IMG/VR virus record: IMGVR_UViG_3300023184_004984
Coordinates: 1-27,046 of that record
DNA: 27,046 nucleotides
Reading direction: 5' to 3' (one strand)
From: a virus
Shown here: piece by piece, positions 4,487-24,117 of the stretch
Position numbering within the stretch: the stretch's first letter is position 1
Layout of the letters: each line of letters starts with the position of its first letter
The notes under the pieces: model-generated
What the model was told of the DNA's origin: nothing
The model's database searches: none
The model's input: only the letters and a program-made list of their open reading frames with translations
Program-made: the position numbers and the translations under genes

Positions 4487-4795
4487 TTAAACTGTGTCAG
4501 GTTCAATCCTGACTTGAAGCGGAAAGTTCTGTGCCCTGGCACTCAGTGTGACTTCACCACCTTTTTGTTCGGCAATCTCAAATGGCAACACTGCCACAGT
4601 GGCCGATCCTGCATCGTGTATGTCCACTGTGATCTGTGCGGCCGTTTCTTCTGTGTATCCAAAGAATTCTATCAAGGTCTCCACAACAAATTCCATTGTG
4701 GTTGTGTTGTCGTTAAGATAGATAACCCGATACAGACTGGGTTCTTTGACGGAGTTTTTTGTTCTTGTTGCTACAACTGTTTCTGCTTGCGACAT
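4487..4795 (-). CDS. clpS: ClpS, N-degron adaptor of Clp protease
   Basis: 102 residues, about the length of bacterial ClpS. After a disordered N-terminal tail it shows LYRVIYLNDNTTTMEFVVET, then an alternating helix EETAAQITVDIHDAG. This matches the ClpS core that binds N-terminal Leu/Phe/Trp/Tyr residues and delivers proteins to ClpAP. The pocket residues N28, D29, M34 and H60 are kept (E. coli N34, D35, M40, H66). The residue matching E. coli M62 appears to be Thr (T56), and the D-Y-T-P segment reads N-T-T-T. A clear AAGGA lies 6 bases before the ATG. It is the last gene of the clpX cluster, preceded by a perfect hairpin at 4814-4838. No ClpA or ClpP is in the window, so it would act with host enzymes. 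Confidence 0.88.
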   Translation of the reverse strand: MSQAETVVATRTKNSVKEPSLYRVIYLNDNTTTMEFVVETLIEFFGYTEETAAQITVDIHDAGSATVAVLPFEIAEQKGGEVTLSARAQNFPLQVRIEPDTV

Positions 4796-4813
4796 GTCGA
4801 GTCCTTGTTGATT

Positions 4814-4838
4814 CAGTAGCGGGACCGCCCCGCTACTG
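4814..4838 (-). terminator. Perfect 10-bp hairpin between hsp20 and clpS
   Basis: Arms CAGTAGCGGG and CCCGCTACTG pair perfectly around a 5-base loop. It lies after the hsp20 stop (4855) and ends about 10 bases before the clpS Shine-Dalgarno. No U-run follows on either strand, so it is not a textbook intrinsic terminator. It may be a weak terminator, an mRNA 3-prime stabiliser for hsp20, or a processing site that sets the hsp20 to clpS ratio. Confidence 0.55.
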
Positions 4839-4854
4839 TATTTACACTATTATA

Positions 4855-5286
4855 TCAGGAAGTGTAGGTGATAGCAATGGTTTTAGGCTTGGCTGTTTCG
4901 GGCACAATACGTTCTAGACACACTGTGAGAATGCCGTCCTGGGCTATTGCTGATTTCACTTCCACATACTCTGCAAGTTGGAAACTGCGTGTAAACTTTC
5001 TAGCACTTATGCCATGATGTAGGTAGTTTACATTTTCTTCCGTGTGCTTTTCGCCGGTGATGACCAACTGACCTTCGTGGAAAGTCACGTCAACTTCACC
5101 TTGGCCAAAGCCGGCCACTGCCACGCGAATTTCATAACTGTCGTCACCTGTTTTGACAATGTCATAGGGTGGATAGTTGGTCTGCGCGGCGTGATCAAAT
5201 TGACTGACAATCCTGTCAAACAGGCGGTCCATGCCAATTGTGTTACGGTAGAAAGGGGTGAGATCTAGAGATGTGATTTTTGTCAT
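4855..5286 (-). CDS. Hsp20/IbpA-type small heat-shock protein
   Basis: 143 residues of the alpha-crystallin family, ATP-independent holdases that bind unfolding proteins. The start GMDRLFDRI and NYPPYDIVK are typical of IbpA/Hsp20. The crystallin domain follows with VAVAGFGQGEVDV, LVITGEK, YLHHGISARKFTRSFQLAEYVEV and DGILTVCLER, then a short C-terminal tail ending IAITYTS. A longer frame reaches back to 5337, but the ATG at 5286 has the only good ribosome site (AATAGGAG, 6-base spacing). A T4-type late box TATAAATA lies about 60 bases upstream, so it may be expressed separately from the clpX operon late in infection. Hsp20 genes are common in T4-like aquatic phages. Confidence 0.93.
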   Translation of the reverse strand: MTKITSLDLTPFYRNTIGMDRLFDRIVSQFDHAAQTNYPPYDIVKTGDDSYEIRVAVAGFGQGEVDVTFHEGQLVITGEKHTEENVNYLHHGISARKFTRSFQLAEYVEVKSAIAQDGILTVCLERIVPETAKPKTIAITYTS

Positions 5287-5345
5287 GTTTTTTCTCCTAT
5301 TAAGCAAGTTATGACTTTGTAGCCCGACCATCGGCACTACATGTG

Positions 5346-5353
5346 TATTTATA
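5346..5353 (-). promoter_or_regulatory. T4-type late promoter box TATAAATA upstream of hsp20
   Basis: On the minus strand the sequence reads GTGTATAAATACAC, containing the exact 8-base T4 late promoter consensus. There is no sigma70 -35 element at the expected distance. It lies between the end of the upstream hypothetical gene (5367) and the hsp20 start (5286), in one of the few real intergenic gaps. Function is inferred from the T4 consensus; the phage late sigma factor is not in this window. Confidence 0.6.
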
Positions 5354-5366
5354 CACGAAATCTCAT

Positions 5367-5624
5367 TTATTGTCTATTATTTCGGTCAGATACAACCACG
5401 TATCGATTTAATATGTCGCTTCCTTTGGGATTCCAACTCATTACAAAAAATTCATACAGTTTATCTTCTTCAAAACACACACGATGTGTGTACCTAACTG
5501 TTTTACTAGTGTAAGGGATATCATAACGCTCGCTCCATTGGGTCAGTTCACGTTTGATAGTTTGCAACATCATTCCGGCTGCCATACCGGCAGAACCAGT
5601 GGGCAGTTGGAATTCTATAAACAT
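5367..5624 (-). CDS. Hypothetical phage protein (85 aa)
   Basis: 85 residues, unrecognised. It has a small Gly/Met-rich helix (GSAGMAAGMMLQTIKREL), a stretch RYDIPYTSKTVRYTHRVCF and a strand-like FFVMSWNPKG, consistent with a compact alpha/beta fold. The ATG overlaps the stop of the bS21 gene (ATGA), so it is translated from the same mRNA as clpX and bS21. No signal peptide or membrane segment. Function unknown. Confidence 0.65.
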   Translation of the reverse strand: MFIEFQLPTGSAGMAAGMMLQTIKRELTQWSERYDIPYTSKTVRYTHRVCFEEDKLYEFFVMSWNPKGSDILNRYVVVSDRNNRQ

Positions 5625-5845
5625 CAGTACAGTTTTTTAGGCAGTTGTTGCTCTGCCAATTTTTTGCGCCAGCGATTTCGGGCCGCAGACTTTTTCCGTT
5701 TGCGAATGGTAGTGGGCTTTTCGTAAAATTCACGATCGCGAAGATCGTTTATGAGGTTGGATTCTGAAATTTTCTTTTTGAATTTGCGCAAGGCACGTTC
5801 AACATTGCCATCTTGTACCAGTACCGATCTTCCGTGTAGTTTCAA
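5624..5845 (-). CDS. rpsU: Ribosomal protein bS21
   Basis: 73 residues: after [20 protein letters not shown] comes [20 protein letters not shown], then [20 protein letters not shown]. This is the basic helical bS21 protein of the 30S subunit, which sits near the mRNA exit/anti-Shine-Dalgarno region and affects translation initiation. The frame is open back to a GTG at 5902, but the TTG at 5845 fits best. It gives the normal bS21 length and overlaps the clpX stop as TTGA, implying translational coupling. Viral bS21 has been described in aquatic and large phages; a virus copy could replace host bS21 on ribosomes and bias them toward phage messages. Confidence 0.9.
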
Positions 5846-7053
5846 TTTGTGCCCTCTAGTGCTGTAGGAATATTTACCAGACCGGGGCCAATTTCTACGC
5901 ACTTTATCCCCATGCCGGAATATCGTTTGAGGTGGTACATGTGTGGCATCAACACACGTTCCAATTCGCTATGCAGTCCGCGAGCACCTGTACGGCTCTC
6001 TAAAGTACGTTCAGCAATAGAGTCCAAGGCTGTGTCAGTAAACTGCAATTCCACTCCATCTTCAGCAAACAACCACTGGTATTGCTCAACAAAGTTGTTT
6101 TTTACACCTGTAAGAATATGCACCAAATCCTCTTTGGTGAGTTCTTGCAAACTCACCCAGTTGGGAAAACGTCCCACAAACTCTGGAATCATACCGTACT
6201 TGACCAAGTCATCAGGTGTGGTCAGTGCAAGATCTGTGTCAGCATCGCTTTTGACTCTGGCACCAAATCCGATGCTGGTGCCTTGCACACGATTTTTAAC
6301 AATCGAATCAAGTCCAACAAATGCACCGCCAGCAATAAACAATATGTTTCGAGTATCAATTTCGATCATGTCTCCTGACGGATGCTTGCGGCCACCACCT
6401 GCTGGTATGCGACACACTGTGCCTTCTACCATTTTTAGCAAGGCCTGTTGAACACCTTCTCCAGACACGTCTCTTGTGATACTGGCACTCTCGCCTTTAC
6501 GGGCTATCTTGTCAATTTCATCCACAAACACAATCCCACGCTGTGTTCGATTGATATCACCATCAGCGGCTGTGAACAATCTAGTGATCAAACTTTCAAC
6601 GTCGTCGCCCACATAGCCTGCTTCTGTGATACTGGTGGCATCCGCAATGGCAAATGGCACATCAAGATACCGTGCCACACTCTTGGCCAACAAGGTCTTG
6701 CCTGAACCAGTGGGACCTAGCATGAGTACATTGGCTTTTTCCATTTCTGGTTCAGTGGTGGTCTTATTGATACGTTTGTAATGATTCACAATGGCCACAC
6801 TCAGCATGATTTTGGCTGATTCTTGACCAATCACATACTGATCTAAATATTGTCGAAGCGCAATAGGATCAAGTTTCCTGGGTTCCTTGGCGGTCTCGGG
6901 TTTGGCTTGCGGATTTTCATCTATCAAGAGTCCTTGACAAAAATCCACACACTCATTGCAAATACCCACTTTTTCACCTACTATGAGTTTTCGAACTGAG
7001 TCTTTATGCTTGCCGCAAAAACTGCAAGTGTTGTGTAAATCAGATGCCATCAT
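5842..7053 (-). CDS. clpX: ClpX, AAA+ unfoldase of the ClpXP protease
   Basis: 403 residues, near full bacterial length. The N-terminal zinc domain has C10, C13, C32 and C35. Walker A GPTGSGKT is at 113-120 and the pore loop AGYVGD at 145-150. Walker B VFVDEID starts at V175, followed by the RKH loop (GRKHP, 221-225), the ClpP-docking tripeptide IGF at 261-263, and sensor II GAR at 356-358. Every catalytic element looks intact. In the family ClpX unfolds proteins and feeds them to ClpP; no clpP is in the window, so the IGF loop suggests docking on host ClpP. The start overlaps the stop of the upstream membrane protein, with AAAGGT before tandem ATGs. The stop overlaps the TTG of bS21. Confidence 0.96.
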
Positions 7054-8645
7054 GCACCTTTGGGGTTGTTTTGTAAGCGTTGTGCCACTTGTTCTCTTTC
7101 TGCATCATTCAGTAATTCGGGATCGTACTCGCCTGTGGTCAGTTTCTCAATAAGATGATCGATATAGGCTGTGTCATAAGCGTACTGATCACTGAGTCCT
7201 TTGTCAACCTCAATCCATTTGAGTCCATTGTATTTGTACAAGACACTGGGCATCTGATCCACTCTAATGAATGAATCTCCCTTGACAGGTGCATCAGGAA
7301 ATCGAATACCAAATCCTCTCAAACGACCAGTGCTGGAAATACTGCCGTCATTGTCTGCCTGGAGATTGATATAGCCTTGCCAAGGCAAAGTGTCTATTGC
7401 ACCTGTTTCATGAAGCCTTCTTTGTTCCTTTACGGTTTCACCTGGATGTTCTGCTTTCCACTGACGCTTGGCTTCTTTTTCAATGTCGGTTTCTCCACTA
7501 GGTGGTGTAAGATAATCTCCCGGACGTTCCAGACTTTGCAATTTGTCAAATTTTGATACCAAGCGTTCATCATTATACACTGATAGATCAGGTTCTGCAA
7601 CTATAGGAACATTGTCGGCAGGATTAGAGTTAGTAACTACAAATTGAATTGGTTCCTCACCATTGACATTGTCTAGCACATCACATTGTCTGTTAGGACA
7701 GAATAGACCAATACCCGGAGCATCCACTAGAGGTGTACCACACTTGTAACAAGGTATAGGGTCATCAGGTGGTTCTGTTGTAATTGTTTCTACAGATTCT
7801 TTAAGTTGTTCTACTTGTTGTTCTGTTAGTGGTCCATCATCAGGTTCATACTTAGGCACAGGATCATCGTGTATAAAGCCTCCTGTACCTTGTCGAGCCC
7901 ATTCAAACTGCTTGTTAGCGGCTAGAATAAGTGTGAGTGCTAGTGGATCAAACACCAGCACAATCATAATAATTACTAATCTTACCGCTCGTTCCAGTAT
8001 GTTTGAGTCCGGATTATCGCCATAGACCAAGGCGGCAATATATTTGATCGGGCCCACTTCCGCCTCGACCTTTCTAAATTCAACTGCAAGAGGCGCTCGC
8101 TCTTCGTTAAGTGTGGTAATCTTTTTTTGACTCTCTGCAATTTCCTGAAGTAGTCGACCACGCTCTTTCTGTTGACCCCGACGAATAGCAACTGCTTTGT
8201 CGGCACCTTTTTCATCTGTTGAGCGGCCCATAACTTGGTCCACTGCCTCGTCAAGTTGTTTAAGCGCCTTACGGTTTGCATCTATGTTCTCTCGTTCTAT
8301 CTTGATTTTTTCATCGTATATGGCTACCTTGGCTACAGCATCGCCTGATACTAAACTTTGATCTGAGTGGGCCTTGCTGAGATATCCAAAAATTCCCATC
8401 GAGGTCAACAACATGAGAAATGCTACTGCGGGTATTAGATACAGTTTGAATATGATGCCAGCACGTTTCCAGTTATTGTGCAACCAAACTGTGGCCACAA
8501 TCTTTCCTAGTTCCAAACTGGCACCCATGATGATCACAGGTATTGTGGCCGCGGAGAAAATAGCAGTGAGTCCTGCTACTGAATAATACGCGGCCACCAC
8601 ACTCAATAGCAAAGCAGTGGCCAAGATACCTAAACCAAATATCAT
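7050..8645 (-). CDS. Membrane protein with coiled coil and zinc ribbon, unknown function
   Basis: 531 residues. About three hydrophobic segments fill residues 3-90, a charged heptad-rich coiled coil spans roughly 103-195, and another hydrophobic segment lies at 221-243. A soluble C-terminal half then begins with acidic linkers and a four-Cys zinc ribbon (C299, C302, C316, C321). The rest is polar and hydrophilic with no known enzyme motif. The layout suggests an inner-membrane protein with a large cytoplasmic domain. It is the gene directly before clpX (ATGA overlap). The ribosome site is weak (AAAG). The function is unknown; a membrane anchor, an assembly platform or a host-takeover factor would all fit. 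Confidence 0.75.
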
Positions 8646-8651
8646 AGATCT

Positions 8652-8969
8652 TTATTTACCGGGTGGTTGTACCTGCTGAACAGCATGTTTAATGGCCACC
8701 CAGGTACCGAAAGCAGGATCTGGCACTTCAAACCACACACGTTCTTTTGTGTCTGGCGTGCTCCATATTTTAGCACGTTCCAACCTGCGTTTGACATGTG
8801 CCTGACCACGCCAATTGGTACCAAATTGTGCTCGGGCTTCTCGTATGATAGCATACCATGTTTCAGTGTCTGCTATCTCAAAATATAATTTGTACATGGG
8901 CAAGGCCGTTTGTCTAAGAGAATCAAGGGACTGAAGCGTGGAATCAGAGGCTTCGATATTGATAGACAT
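8652..8969 (-). CDS. Hypothetical phage protein (105 aa)
   Basis: 105 residues with no recognised domain. The middle is rich in Trp and Arg (YAIIREARAQFGTNWRGQAH, then VKRRLERAKIW), and the C-terminus is WVAIKHAVQQVQPPGK. The start is well supported by AAAAGGA 6 bases upstream. The gene ends 6 bases before the 531-residue membrane protein and begins 13 bases after a possible 34-codon ORF, so all of them probably share the transcript started at 9168-9197. Function unknown. Confidence 0.65.
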   Translation of the reverse strand: MSINIEASDSTLQSLDSLRQTALPMYKLYFEIADTETWYAIIREARAQFGTNWRGQAHVKRRLERAKIWSTPDTKERVWFEVPDPAFGTWVAIKHAVQQVQPPGK

Positions 8970-8982
8970 GTTTCATTCCTTT

Positions 8983-9087
8983 TCACTGAAGTTCCAAATG
9001 GGCATACACCGGGTACCAGCCGGTTTTGATCTGTTGCCAGATCTTGGTCAGTGTCTCAACCTTGTGGACATTACATCTACATGCCAC
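8983..9087 (-). CDS. Possible very small protein (34 codons, GTG start)
   Basis: The frame ends KVETLTKIWQQIKTGWYPVY followed by AHLELQ and a TGA 13 bases before the next gene. Its amphipathic, protein-like composition and tight spacing to the next start suggest real coding. The frame closes upstream at a TAA near 9130, and the only plausible start is a GTG at 9087 without a clear Shine-Dalgarno. It could therefore be a genuine micro-protein, the remains of a longer gene, or chance. No family recognised. Confidence 0.35.
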   Translation of the reverse strand: MACRCNVHKVETLTKIWQQIKTGWYPVYAHLELQ

Positions 9088-9167
9088 GGCAGTGTCGGGC
9101 CCGGGTTATCGAATCACCCCGCTCACTCCATTAGATCGCCACCATCACCTTGCTCATGCACAACGAC
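9088..9167 (-). other. Non-coding leader of the clpX transcript
   Basis: About 80 bases between the promoter at 9168-9197 and the possible 34-codon ORF. It holds only tiny frames (8-12 codons) and a GGGT/ACCC inverted repeat around an ATCGAAT loop near 9103-9119. Together with the small ORF it makes the longest stretch without a confident gene in the window (8970-9198). It does not fold into a recognisable tRNA. Confidence 0.4.
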
Positions 9168-9197
9168 ATTATACAAGGAAAGTGGTGGCAGTGTCAA
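9168..9197 (-). promoter_or_regulatory. Consensus sigma70 promoter upstream of the clpX cluster
   Basis: On the minus strand TTGACA, an 18-base spacer, then TATAAT: both hexamers are perfect. It lies directly after the stop of the 127-residue acidic protein gene and points toward the 105-residue protein, the membrane protein, clpX, bS21 and beyond. It would be read by host RNA polymerase without phage factors, which implies early expression. Confidence 0.85.
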
Positions 9198-9198
9198 G

Positions 9199-9582
9199 TT
9201 ACTCTTGTTCTAAACTCAGTGGTCCGTTAAACCAAGTTTCTGTGTCGTTGTTGGTCCAGCCTTCGTTTTCCCAACCGTCATAGGACTCTTCGTCCCAGAG
9301 TTCATCCATGCGTTCGCGTTCTTCTTCCGGCATGTCTTCAGGATACTCAACATCTGCCCAGCAACCATCATCCAAACTATCAAGTTCAAAGTCATAGTCT
9401 GTGGCAAATACTTCAAGTCCATCCGGATTGGCTAGGTCAATGTCAGGTCGCTCATCGCTTTCACAATAGACCTTGCCCCATCTAAAGCCAGTACTGCGTT
9501 TGATTGTTTGGCCATCTTTGGTCCAGAATTCAGTTTCTACTACGTTTTTCTTTTCAGCGGTTGTTAGTACCCACGTGGTCAT
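9199..9582 (-). CDS. Acidic hypothetical phage protein (127 aa)
   Basis: 127 residues, strongly acidic in the C-terminal half, with many Asp/Glu/Trp (DDGCWADVEYPEDMPEEERE, then ESYDGWENEGWTNND). The N-terminal part MTTWVLTTAEKKNVVETEFW looks like a small beta domain. The frame has an earlier ATG at 9594, but the ATG at 9582 has GGAG 6 bases upstream and forms an ATGA overlap with the upstream gene, so it is preferred. The acidic Trp-rich tail could mimic nucleic acid or bind a basic partner; this is speculation. No domain recognised. Confidence 0.7.
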   Translation of the reverse strand: MTTWVLTTAEKKNVVETEFWTKDGQTIKRSTGFRWGKVYCESDERPDIDLANPDGLEVFATDYDFELDSLDDGCWADVEYPEDMPEEERERMDELWDEESYDGWENEGWTNNDTETWFNGPLSLEQE

Positions 9583-9800
9583 TTGTAACTCCATATCTTG
9601 GTGTCAATATCTTGAATGAATTTTTTTGCCCATTTTACATATCCTCCATTAGTGTCGCTCCATGGACAATGCTGTTCCCATAGTGCTTTGGCTGCCGCAG
9701 GATCTGGGTGAGATTTTATCAACTGATCTACGTTGGGTCTGGTGACATATCCATTTATGCCCCAGTCATGTGACCCCAGTGCAGTTTCTAGTTCATTCAC
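9579..9800 (-). CDS. Hypothetical phage protein (73 aa)
   Basis: 73 residues, unrecognised. It contains a helix-like segment VDQLIKSHPDPAAAKALWEQ and ends WAKKFIQDIDTKIWSYK. An AGGA lies about 10 bases before the ATG. It is joined to the next gene by an ATGA overlap and starts 2 bases before the stop of the upstream Bax-inhibitor-like gene, so it belongs to the same operon. Function unknown. Confidence 0.65.
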   Translation of the reverse strand: MNELETALGSHDWGINGYVTRPNVDQLIKSHPDPAAAKALWEQHCPWSDTNGGYVKWAKKFIQDIDTKIWSYK

Positions 9801-9802
9801 TG

Positions 9803-10489
9803 TTACTTCCTATCGCCAAACAGTTGTAACAAGTTCAAGAACAAGTTGATAAAGTCCATGTACAAAGTCAACGCACCACGTACTTCTGCGGCATCACTGG
9901 TTTCATACATGAGTTCTTCGCGAATCTGTTGTGTGTCGTAGGCAGTGAGGCCTAGAAAAATAATAATAGCCAGTGCGGAGATCACCATCTGCATCACGGT
10001 GCTGCCAATAAAGATGTTTACAATACTGGCAATGCAGATGGCGATCAATCCCACAAACATGAACTTGCCCATGCTGTCTAAACTGCGTCGAGTAAAATAA
10101 CCATAGCCACTCATAACCCCAAACAGGATGGCTGACCCCATAAACGCACTCACAATTGATCCCATAGCAAACACAGCAAATATCATGGAGAAACTCAGGC
10201 CCATTAGAGCCGCAAAGCCATGTAGGCATAACTGTGCTACTGGCTTGCTTGGATTATTGCCTAGTACCATGCCAACAGCAAATATGGCTGCCAAGGGTGC
10301 AAAGATCACAATCCATTTCATTACTCCAGTAAAAAGGAACTGTAGCAATTCGGGTGTGGAGCCCACCACGTAACTCACAATCATGCTCACTACTACTGCT
10401 AGACTCATGTGAGCATACACACGCCCCATGGCTGTGTTGATTTCTTCTGCTGAACGATAGGTATCGTTGGCTAAACTTGTGCTAAACAT
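9803..10489 (-). CDS. Bax inhibitor-1 / YccA family membrane protein
   Basis: 228 residues, typical for the family, with about seven hydrophobic helices. The family end pattern is present: GLTAYDTQQI with a conserved Asp, then LTLYMDFINLFLNLLQLFG with a second Asp. In bacterial relatives these acidic residues form the pH and calcium sensor of the channel. E. coli YccA belongs to the same family and is a substrate and modulator of the FtsH membrane protease. The N-terminal tail before the first helix is about 25 residues. A very strong ribosome site (AAGGAGGAG) precedes the ATG, suggesting high expression. It follows a large phage hypothetical and is not far upstream of the clpX/clpS cluster. 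A role in FtsH or membrane-stress control is inference. Confidence 0.92.
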   Translation of the reverse strand: MFSTSLANDTYRSAEEINTAMGRVYAHMSLAVVVSMIVSYVVGSTPELLQFLFTGVMKWIVIFAPLAAIFAVGMVLGNNPSKPVAQLCLHGFAALMGLSFSMIFAVFAMGSIVSAFMGSAILFGVMSGYGYFTRRSLDSMGKFMFVGLIAICIASIVNIFIGSTVMQMVISALAIIIFLGLTAYDTQQIREELMYETSDAAEVRGALTLYMDFINLFLNLLQLFGDRK

Positions 10490-16362: not shown

Positions 16363-16391
16363 ATTATAACCGATCTTGAATATTTGGTCAA
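16363..16391 (-). promoter_or_regulatory. Sigma70-type promoter, copy 3 of 3
   Basis: Minus strand TTGACC, 17-base spacer, TATAAT, immediately downstream of the terminator at 16400-16424 and immediately upstream of the ATG at 16356. The extended -35 region TTTGGTTGACCAA is shared with copy 2. Confidence 0.85.
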
Positions 16392-16424
16392 CCAAAAGAA
16401 AAACCCTGCACAAGGCAGGGTTTT
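16390..16424 (-). terminator. Rho-independent terminator of the outer-membrane protein gene
   Basis: On the minus strand AAAACCCTGC, loop CTTGT, GCAGGGTTTT form a perfect 10-bp stem followed by TCTTTT. It lies about 50 bases after the stop of the outer-membrane-type gene and insulates it from promoter copy 3, whose -35 box overlaps the U-tract end. Confidence 0.9.
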
Positions 16425-16435
16425 GTAGTACTAGA

Positions 16436-16468
16436 GTATTACTTTTTTAGAGTAATACCAAAGTATTA
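16436..16468 (-). repeat. Overlapping inverted repeats in the 3-prime region of the outer-membrane protein gene
   Basis: GTATTAC (16436-16442) can pair with GTAATAC (16452-16458). The inner TAATAC (16453-16458) can pair instead with GTATTA (16463-16468) over a 4-base loop. The two stems are mutually exclusive. They lie between the stop codon and the terminator and may only protect the 3-prime end. Confidence 0.4.
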
Positions 16469-16472
16469 GTTT

Positions 16473-17015
16473 TTAGAATGCAAAGCCAAGACCAAGACCC
16501 CAAGCATTTTCCTTGATGTCTTGATAACTCTTGCTGGCATTGATGTTCAAATTGACTTTGTTTGCAACAGGAATTGAATATGTACCGAATGCCACTGTTT
16601 GATTTGTCATGGTCTGCTCTGTGCTACCAACACGAGTCTTTACACCAATCAGTGCGAAACCAGGGCCTGCTTTGATACCAGTGGTGGCTCCAACCAAACC
16701 GTAGTTGTATGCGGCACCACGGGCACCATTGGCACCATTGTCATGGCCCCACCCAACAAATGGAGTGATAGGACCCAGTGCCTTGCCGGCAGTCAATTCC
16801 AAACTGTTATACATACCACCTGAGGCTGATACAGAGGTGCGGCTTTGAAGACCGGCTTGAATGCCACCAATGTCTTTGCCAGCACGAACATATTGAACGG
16901 TGCTGTCTTGATAACCTTGTTTGCTTTGAACATGGTCAACATCCACAGATACGAAATCGGCTGCAAAAGCAGTACCGGAAATGGCCACGGCCAAGATTGC
17001 GAAGATTTTCTTCAT
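16473..17015 (-). CDS. Phage-encoded outer-membrane beta-barrel protein with signal peptide
   Basis: 180 residues. A clear Sec signal peptide MKKIFAILAVAISGTAFA is followed by cleavage before ADF. The mature part is made of alternating Gly-rich strands (SLELTAGKALGPITPFVGWG, YNYGLVGATTGIKAGPGFAL, IGVKTRVGSTEQTM) and ends AWGLGLGFAF. A C-terminal Phe in such a strand is the usual BAM-complex recognition signal of outer-membrane proteins, so an 8-strand-like barrel in the host outer membrane is likely. It is a stand-alone unit: AAAAGGA ribosome site, its own terminator, and a gap upstream. Some phages encode outer-membrane proteins that change the cell surface and exclude competitors; the role here is inferred. 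It has no homology that I can name. Confidence 0.82.
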   Translation of the reverse strand: MKKIFAILAVAISGTAFAADFVSVDVDHVQSKQGYQDSTVQYVRAGKDIGGIQAGLQSRTSVSASGGMYNSLELTAGKALGPITPFVGWGHDNGANGARGAAYNYGLVGATTGIKAGPGFALIGVKTRVGSTEQTMTNQTVAFGTYSIPVANKVNLNINASKSYQDIKENAWGLGLGFAF

Positions 17016-17093
17016 TTAGTTTTTCCTTTTAAAAAGATTGTGCTTTTTTTAAAAAACACAGAATAATATTTAGTAGAAACACGTATAAGGTGT
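17016..17093 (-). promoter_or_regulatory. Upstream region of the outer-membrane protein gene
   Basis: 78 bases, A/T-rich. On the minus strand it holds AAACAC-CTTATAC-GTGTTT (6-bp stem), then ACTAAATA, which matches the T4 late box at 6 of 8 positions, then TGTG with a T6/A7 run and CACA that can fold back, and the AAAAGGA ribosome site. No sigma70 -35/-10 pair is visible. A weak late promoter plus leader hairpin is the best reading. Confidence 0.4.
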
Positions 17094-22008: not shown

Positions 22009-22200
22009 TTACCAGTGTCTAACGGTGTTGGCTATAATAAAGCCACAAGTTATAACATGTATTATAACCCAAAACGTTTTGAAGAACAAGGCTATCCGGG
22101 CCTCTCGCAAGGTCAAGATAGGCACATCCGGACGATCATGATCACTCTCGCCCATCAAGTGCCCAGTGGCCCGGGCCCATATACGTTCAAAACTGTTCAA
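22009..22200 (-). CDS. Small membrane protein between isocitrate lyase and nrdB (63 aa)
   Basis: 63 residues: [20 protein letters not shown], a linker [18 protein letters not shown] and one transmembrane helix [20 protein letters not shown], ending VRHW. The start is TTG and overlaps the isocitrate lyase stop as TTGA. The soluble part is well composed and of the sort found in T4-like aquatic phages beside nrdB; no function is known. It could tether an nrd-related complex to the membrane, which is speculation. Confidence 0.7.
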
Positions 22201-23429
22201 TGGAATTGATCCGCTTCGGTTGAATTCCGGTTGGCCACAGTTGATGTGGCTCCTACCGCTTCACTCACAGCATCAAAGTAACTGACGCCAACTTCACGCT
22301 GGTGCTTGACTGTGGTAAAGCCACGCTCTTGTGCCGCAAACTCACGCTGTTGCATTTCTGCATAGCCAGCCATGCCACGTTGCTTGTAGGCTTCAGCCAA
22401 TTCAAAGGTGGCCAAGTTAACTGAATGAAAACCAGCAAGTGTTATGAACTGGAATCGGAACCCCAGTTCGCCCAATTCACGTTGGAATGTTTCACACTCG
22501 TCTTCACTTAAAAACTTACGCCAATTAAAACTAGGGCTACAGTTATAAGCAAGCATTTGGTCCGGAAACTGAGCATGGATAGCATCTGCGAATTTCTTAG
22601 CCTGTGCGATATCAGGTGTGCTAGTTTCAAACCATAAGAGATCAGCGTAAGGGGCATAAGCAAGACCTCGGCTAATACATGCATCAAGACCATTTTTAAA
22701 TTTGTAAAAGCCTTCTTCAGTGCGCTCATTGATAATAAAGTCCCGGTCTAATGGATCATGGTCACTGGTGATCAGTGTGGCTGACTCTGCGTCTGTTCGT
22801 GCCATGATAACTGTGTCTACGTCTGCCACATCTGCAGCCAGTCGTGCGGCATTGAGTGTGCGAATCATTTGCCCTGTTGGAATCAATACCTTACCACCCA
22901 AGTGTCCGCATTTCTTTTCTGAACTCAATTGATCCTCAAAGTGTACGCCTGCGGCACCTGCTTCAATCATAGCCATCATTAGTTCATATGCGTTTAACGC
23001 ACCACCAAAACCCGCTTCAGCATCTGCTACAATTGGAAGGAAGTAATCCGTAGTGTCTGCTGGAATTGCGGCTGTTGCTTCGTATGCCTCTAGTGTTTGG
23101 ATTTGATCAGCACGACGGAAAGCATTGTTGATACCTCGAACAACTTTTGGCACTGAGTCAACTGGATATAAACTTTGATCAGGGTATGTTTGATTGGCTG
23201 TGTTGTTGGCACCAGCCACTTGCCATCCACTCAAGTAAATTGCTTGCAGGCCGGCCTTGGCATGTTGCACAGCCATTTGCCCATTGTAAGCACCCAGTGT
23301 ATTGACGTAGGGTTCATTGGCCAGCAACTCGCGTAGTTTATGTGCTCCACGACGTGCTAGTGTGTGTTCAATTTGTACGCTACCTTGTAGTCGTCGAACT
23401 GTTTCTTGTGTGTAATTGCGTTTTTTCAT
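22197..23429 (-). CDS. aceA: Isocitrate lyase
   Basis: 410 residues, slightly shorter than E. coli AceA (434) but complete. It has [17 protein letters not shown] (135-143) with metal-binding Asp, the catalytic loop [15 protein letters not shown] with C174 (171-185), MARTDAES, and the substrate-binding NCSPSFNW (296-303), followed by ITLAGFHS. The enzyme splits isocitrate into glyoxylate and succinate, bypassing the CO2-releasing part of the TCA cycle. The start at 23429 is set by AAAGGA; the frame reaches 23474 but overlaps the methyltransferase. It lies inside the nrd operon of an evident phage, and its composition is like the other core phage genes rather than the AT-rich insert next to it. 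No malate synthase is in the window. Confidence 0.96.
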
Positions 23430-23448
23430 TTTTTTCCTTTGTGTAATA

Positions 23449-24117
23449 TTAGATAATTTTTTTATATTGACCATTATTTTTTACAATCTCAATGTAGTAA
23501 ATAAAATTCGATCGTGGTGAATCGAAAAAGTTGTTACTTAAAAACCAATCATTTATTTTAAGTCCTGCACCTTCTATCATATTTTTAAAGGTGTCAGGAC
23601 GCGATCCAGCCAAATTTTCTTGTAATAAAATTATACCATTGTCAGTGAGATGGGATGCAATATTATCAAAAAAGTTTTGATGTATGGACCAATCTTTATC
23701 TAGTATAATTCTATTTCTGTGCCATTCATCATGAATTGATTTAGAAAAATGAGGCGGATTTCCAATCACCAAATCAAATTTTCTGTCAGATGGCATCAAT
23801 GATAAATCTTCTAACAACAATGCTTCCACATTAAAAAGTTGATTTTGATGAGCAGTATTGCGAACACAAGCAATCGCAGGATAATAAATATCACTACACG
23901 TTAACGATTGACATAATCCATGATCTAGTAAATCAAATCCAATAAATGCTGGACCAGAACACCATTCATATGCTGTTTTGAACACTTTTCCTGGGTAGCG
24001 ATTTTTTAATACCTCAGAATAATCAGTTCCAAAAGTAGTGCCGCCGCCATCCATTTCATAGGTATATTCCACAGTAAATTTTGATTTACCGGTAGTATAC
24101 CATGACAATTTTTTCAT
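23449..24117 (-). CDS. SAM-dependent methyltransferase with NPPH motif, AT-rich
   Basis: 222 residues. Motif [15 protein letters not shown] (51-64) for S-adenosylmethionine is followed by an acidic end of strand 2 (TCSDIYYP), VEALLLEDL, and the catalytic NPPH (120-123) in [10 protein letters not shown]. This is the N-P-P-aromatic type used on exocyclic or amide nitrogens (HemK/RsmC/N6-adenine group). Strand IV and the end ([21 protein letters not shown]) complete the fold. The target could be protein Gln, RNA or DNA. Its base composition is AT-richer than nrdA and aceA on either side, suggesting insertion into the operon. Ribosome site AAGGG. Confidence 0.82.

Follow-up and report, generated by a model that had tools for sequence, protein, structure and literature searches.

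A small β-barrel gene of an uncultured phage forms an insulated unit in a locus that appears to exchange one outer-membrane barrel for another, and the explanation that best accounts for it as a whole, to which we give a probability of about 60%, is that a swappable phage barrel remodels the outer membrane of the infected cell in the manner of a porin, with exclusion of rival phages as the most probable benefit. The gene lies in a 27,046-nucleotide stretch of DNA (the window: positions 1 to 27,046 of IMG/VR record IMGVR_UViG_3300023184_004984; Table 1). The original prediction had placed an insulated outer-membrane protein gene at 16390-17015. That range holds the gene and its terminator and barely reaches the promoter-like site of the next gene, but it was given without a strand; the ORF is on the minus strand.

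Table 1 Features of the barrel gene and its surroundings in the window
Feature	Position	Strand	Details
NB1, two overlapping ORFs of 315 and 443 aa	17094..19369	−	Conserved; marks the slot's upstream border; 443-aa ORF with uncertain start
CTAAATA, similar to T4-type late promoter	17067..17073	−	52 bases 5′ of the start codon
5′ UTR hairpin	17040..17059	−	RNA fold z −2.0, weak
Shine–Dalgarno AAAGG	17025..17029	−	Read from sequence
ORF of type A barrel protein	16473-17015	−	180 aa
Signal peptide	16962..17015	−	Codons 1–18, cleavage AFA/AD; invariant Ala16 and Ala18
Mature ten-strand β-barrel, predicted (type A body)	16473..16961	−	Phe end; stop codon included
Two inverted repeats	16426..16468	−	3′ UTR, TAATAC-4-GTATTA type; within the 27-kb window only here
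Intrinsic terminator	16400..16424	−	Hairpin 3′ of the barrel gene
Sigma-70-like promoter of next gene	16363..16391	−	TTGACC-17-TATAAT, directly after the terminator

Signal peptide and predicted fold

The protein starts with a cleavable Sec signal peptide, MKKIFAILAVAISGTAFA, followed by AD, identified by its sequence pattern and by the cleavage rule of signal peptidase I (SPase I); positions −3 and −1 relative to the cleavage point are Ala in every one of 29 homologues. The homologues comprise two families of small barrels, type A, to which the window protein belongs, and type B. All 68 distinct members end in Phe (45/45 type A and 23/23 type B), the aromatic end expected of barrels, and none has a cysteine in its mature part. 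Gly makes up 15% of the mature residues of type A versus 6% in other genes. When 910 other ORFs of the collected loci, each 100 aa or longer, were examined, just one had both a signal-like start and a Phe end. The signal peptide, Gly richness and C-terminal Phe on which the original prediction relied are thus all borne out, and at levels well above chance.

AlphaFold2, with 12 homologues as input, predicts for the window protein an up-and-down barrel of ten antiparallel strands (mean pLDDT 86, pTM 0.76), with short turns of 2–4 residues on one side, taken as periplasmic, and loops of 3–10 residues on the other. The predicted outward loops are moderately variable among homologues. All PDB matches to the model at E ≤ 0.001 are membrane β-barrels, including NspA, OpcA, OmpX, porins, autotransporter domains and designed barrels such as TMB10_163; many superpose with a large r.m.s.d., and the matches serve to assign the fold class rather than to name one relative. 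The gene product is very probably an outer-membrane β-barrel. The barrel prediction suggested earlier as a check gave a barrel, and the claimed export to the outer membrane is well supported by computation, through the predicted fold, the barrel-only PDB matches and the Phe end.

A soluble, β-rich periplasmic protein, the outcome named beforehand as speaking against the prediction, did not turn up. Such a protein might be suspected because no curated family matches the window protein and because hydrophobic alternation in the strands exceeds that of shuffled strands only moderately (2.01 versus 1.29). The membrane-barrel fold matches, the invariant Phe end, the cysteine-free mature parts and the presence of porins in the same slot (see below) make it extremely improbable. 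The OmpX and OmpW families, also proposed for a search, do not fit: membership in the OmpX, OmpW or Ail-Lom families is contradicted by the ten predicted strands, compared with eight, and by the absence of any Pfam match up to E 1.

Expression signals and insulation

The gene has candidate signals of its own on both sides. Upstream, the CTAAATA of the window is a putative late promoter, judged by its sequence. Of 67 homologues, 17 have the motif [CT]TAA[AG]TA in the 90 bases upstream and 26 have a sigma-70-like site in its place; in all, a promoter-like site precedes 43/67 barrel genes versus 163/824 other genes. Relatives also have hairpin-like 5′ UTRs, which differ in sequence from that of the window, and AAAAGGAAAAA at the Shine–Dalgarno site is common to many of them.

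Downstream, 33/45 type A and 23/23 type B genes (56/68) have a terminator after them, compared with 49/845 other genes (6%) at the same loci. The layout of a promoter directly after the terminator recurs downstream of many relatives. Near-consensus TTGACC-17-TATAAT sites, each with 11/12 matches, are repeated on the minus strand of the window (16391-16363, 16126-16098 and 15599-15571). The 3′ UTR and terminator together fold with a z of −7.1. The two inverted repeats of the 3′ UTR, TAATACTTTGGTATTA and TAATACTCTAGTACTA, are seen too after type B genes and after the 365-aa porins described below; they are possibly an RNA stability or sRNA element, and an Rfam search returned no match at the gathering score.

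These frequencies confirm that the gene has its own terminator and is insulated, as had been claimed. Its description as an independent, moron-like unit is likewise well supported by computation: in addition to its promoter-like site and terminator, the gene is missing at the same site in three distant relatives and present in many other neighbourhoods.

A probable slot for barrels

In close relatives, the gene order is NrdB, glutaredoxin, PAAR, NB1, barrel and DNA ligase. NB1 has no Pfam match. It is a single ORF of about 640–690 aa in most relatives and is split into two overlapping ORFs in the window and in both L022 and L026; L020 has a similar split. Used as bait, NB1 samples the locus independently of the barrel, so that the result is unbiased by it. 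In all 21 contigs with an NB1 of at least 58% identity and a readable next ORF, that ORF encodes a barrel with a signal peptide, either type B (about 180 aa) or a porin of 293–302 aa. The 293–302-aa proteins match Pfam Porin_4 (up to 8.6e-24) and also porins of solved structure, Omp32 among them. Scanning for the leader pattern revealed further proteins of 365 aa in the same slot (Porin_4 at 1.5e-32), at loci where the adjoining NrdB and ligase are about 92% and about 84% identical, respectively, to those of the window. Type A occupies the slot in the window and in a second case (L005, L006 and L055). The next gene is not a barrel in the distant NB1 relatives L180, L181 and L183 (NB1 33–38% identity). 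We conclude that the locus is probably an exchangeable porin-type slot. The porin search recommended earlier thus had a divided outcome, with full porins in the slot of relatives but no porin family matching the window protein.

The position of the gene downstream of PAAR and NB1, which are possible virion genes, together with the late-like motif of the window copy, could also indicate that the barrel is a virion part, or a lysis aid that loosens the outer membrane. This is improbable, given that the gene is found in many unrelated neighbourhoods, that its own promoter region parts it from NB1 and a terminator follows it, that full porins substitute for it and that distant NB1 relatives have no barrel there.

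Exchange of the mature body

Comparison of the window with L022 and L026 reveals where the slot occupants differ. DNA identity is about 81–82% from 2.4 kb upstream through base +58 of the gene; the DNA of the mature protein is unalignable; and identity resumes at about 83%, from +537 (the gene end) for L022 and from +568, ahead of the terminator, for L026. In L020, the type A body of the window is likewise replaced by unalignable sequence. Between the window and its type B relatives, the upstream NB1 proteins are 87–90% identical and the downstream gene 84–90%. The leader of the window gene has its nearest counterparts among type B genes (DNA identity as high as 89%), and its body is closest (79%) to that of L050, a type A gene with a different signal peptide (leader 61%) in another neighbourhood. 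Similarly, the leader of L055 is 94% identical to that of a type B gene and its body 79% identical to that of L052. The simplest reading of these alignments is that the mature body has been replaced under a fixed leader. Divergence in place is ruled out for the window and L055, the bodies of which resemble type A genes elsewhere far more than they do their slot neighbours. An assembly chimera is unlikely, as the breaks coincide with functional boundaries and two metagenomes contain the second type A case as identical sequence.

The common leader is a property of the slot. Universal conservation of the leader is ruled out, because across type A the signal peptide varies more than the body; the first homologues were recruited through the leader peptide, which biased that sample.

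Relationship of the occupants

Type B is also predicted to have ten strands, with the same topology as type A (pLDDT 84.6). Its structural matches listed are membrane β-barrels, the most similar being the small channels KdgM and NanC. The types therefore share a predicted fold, and evidence of common descent is suggestive for type B and the porins only. With signal peptides removed, types A and B hardly align (hhalign probability 11%), type B aligns with porins over the C-terminal part (probability 81%) and profile comparison gives no alignment between type A and porins. A score of 3e-12 between types A and B was inflated by the signal peptide. The mature profiles gave no support for a derivation of type A from a porin. 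The window protein has no match to the Porin_4 profile; the score of one type A member, 20.6 bits, stays below the cut-off of 27, and the ten strands predicted for the window protein compare with sixteen in Porin_4.

Family and distribution

Scans of IMG/VR, which yielded 48 loci and then 80, place type A, with at least 45 distinct proteins, in uncultured phages, on contigs of up to 374 kb. The gene is present once in 20 of 22 larger records searched whole and more often in two; these records were picked as carriers of the gene, and the figure speaks only to its usual single copy. Of 13 carrier contigs, 5 have a T4-type capsid, and all 5 lie outside the slot group; the carriers therefore need not form one clade. 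Type A and type B genes stand in tandem on one 374-kb phage contig (L087, about 6001-7165). The two types also occur together in record G004. Because types A and B co-occur in some phages, the bodies are not strict alternatives.

Among isolated phages there was no match to type A, type B or the 365-aa porin. No type A relative turned up in a scan of bacterial genome contigs, the reach of which was restricted by its pattern matching, and none among 369 genomes of one bacterial class searched with the type A profile. As a positive control, the 365-aa phage porin retrieved bacterial porins from the same genomes, so the search is able to detect proteins of this kind. Weak bacterial matches were rejected as signal peptides or other proteins (PagL-like and opacity-like barrels). 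No family in Pfam, PHROGs, NCBIfam or PADLOC covers the window protein, and a PHROGs match at E 0.03 lies chiefly over the signal peptide. As the mini-barrels have no bacterial relative in the sampled genomes, they could have arisen in phages or be porins reduced to the extreme. From the resemblance of the slot porins, we would guess that the hosts are Betaproteobacteria.

The window also contains an isocitrate lyase gene at 22197-23474 (−) (Pfam ICL, 1.6e-105) and, at 4487-10489 (−), host-like stress and proteolysis genes (ClpS, Hsp20 and ClpX) with a Bax-inhibitor-like membrane protein.

Proposed role of the barrel

We propose that the barrel gene is transcribed as its own unit and that the host Sec system would export the protein, which we infer is inserted into the outer membrane by the host BAM machinery. 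The slot would swap the mature body for another small barrel or a full porin while the leader and terminator stay. The common job of the occupants would be to remodel the outer membrane of the infected cell much as porins do, and a nearly loop-free barrel that replaces, or stands beside, host porins acting as receptors could protect the cell from rival phages.

Since all slot occupants are outer-membrane barrels, porin-like remodelling of the surface is their most likely role; the sharing of one slot by different barrels and full porins favours a porin-related function. For the window protein itself, which matches no porin family, this role leans on the shared slot. Receptor masking, altered permeability and superinfection exclusion, the roles put forward in the original prediction, all stay candidates. 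Superinfection exclusion is our tentative choice for the main benefit, at somewhat less than even odds. The short loops and the wholesale replacement of the body fit an escape from recognition by rival phages. Against it, loop variability is moderate, below the hypervariability expected from a surface arms race, type A and B bodies coexist in some phages, and a late-like promoter, as in the window's subgroup, would be ill suited to early exclusion. PADLOC returned no defence-system match for the window protein. A stronger version, in which large phages have a dedicated slot where at least four body types, with phage-specific ten-strand mini-barrels at one extreme and full porins at the other, are swapped from the cleavage site to the gene end, hiding the cell from rivals, is more doubtful still.

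The main rival to exclusion is permeability. The barrel could be a diffusion pore, an auxiliary metabolic gene product that feeds the infected cell with nutrients or ions once host porin synthesis stops. Porins are the slot's other occupants, the type B fold is most similar to small channels, the phage of the window has metabolic genes, among them one for isocitrate lyase and one for ribonucleotide reductase, and OmpL, a porin of marine phages, adjoins ammonium transport genes (PMC8115048). On this view so small a ten-strand barrel would have to conduct usefully, and plain permeability does not need repeated swaps of unrelated bodies; we regard this explanation as possible but rather unlikely.

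Comparison with known systems

The closest counterparts come from a viral structure library, in which two proteins of uncultured Caudovirales phages share the predicted fold of the window protein: A0A6J7WKY7, uncharacterized (57% identity, TM 0.94), and A0A6J5TAD3, a 'Porin domain-containing protein' (25% identity, TM 0.75). Both names are automatic, and the records give neither a function nor a genomic slot. The trimeric porins of Betaproteobacteria (Porin_4, for example Omp32 and PorB) have family members that share the slot in related phages; they are about twice as long as the window protein, other family members of which match them only below threshold.

Phage genes for outer-membrane proteins were known before, mostly as unexplained extras. 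The lambdoid prophages carry NmpC (DLP12) and Lc, which we take to be the porin of phage PA-2; these too are phage genes for outer-membrane barrels, likened to the window gene by description. The DLP12 porin transcript gives rise to the IpeX RNA, which controls OmpC (PMC12197685), and may serve as a precedent for tying a phage porin to the loss of a host porin. OmpL is a viral porin of marine phages, a β-barrel of unknown substrate (PMC8115048); like the window protein, it is a phage-encoded barrel, but it differs in its linkage to ammonium transport and in its presumed Bacteroidetes hosts. The unexpected feature here is a probable fixed slot, filled in some phages by a ten-strand mini-barrel and in others by a full porin. 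Such a slot makes the reasons for rebuilding the host surface testable, because a single assay could set its occupants side by side.

Among the best structural matches, NspA, OpcA and KdgM are natural small barrels, bacterial and with different loops or strand numbers. The designed barrel TMB10_163 (target-normalised TM 0.65 for type A and 0.78 for type B) is artificial, and the resemblance is one of fold only; natural ten-strand barrels with minimal loops, as predicted here, would be of interest to protein designers.
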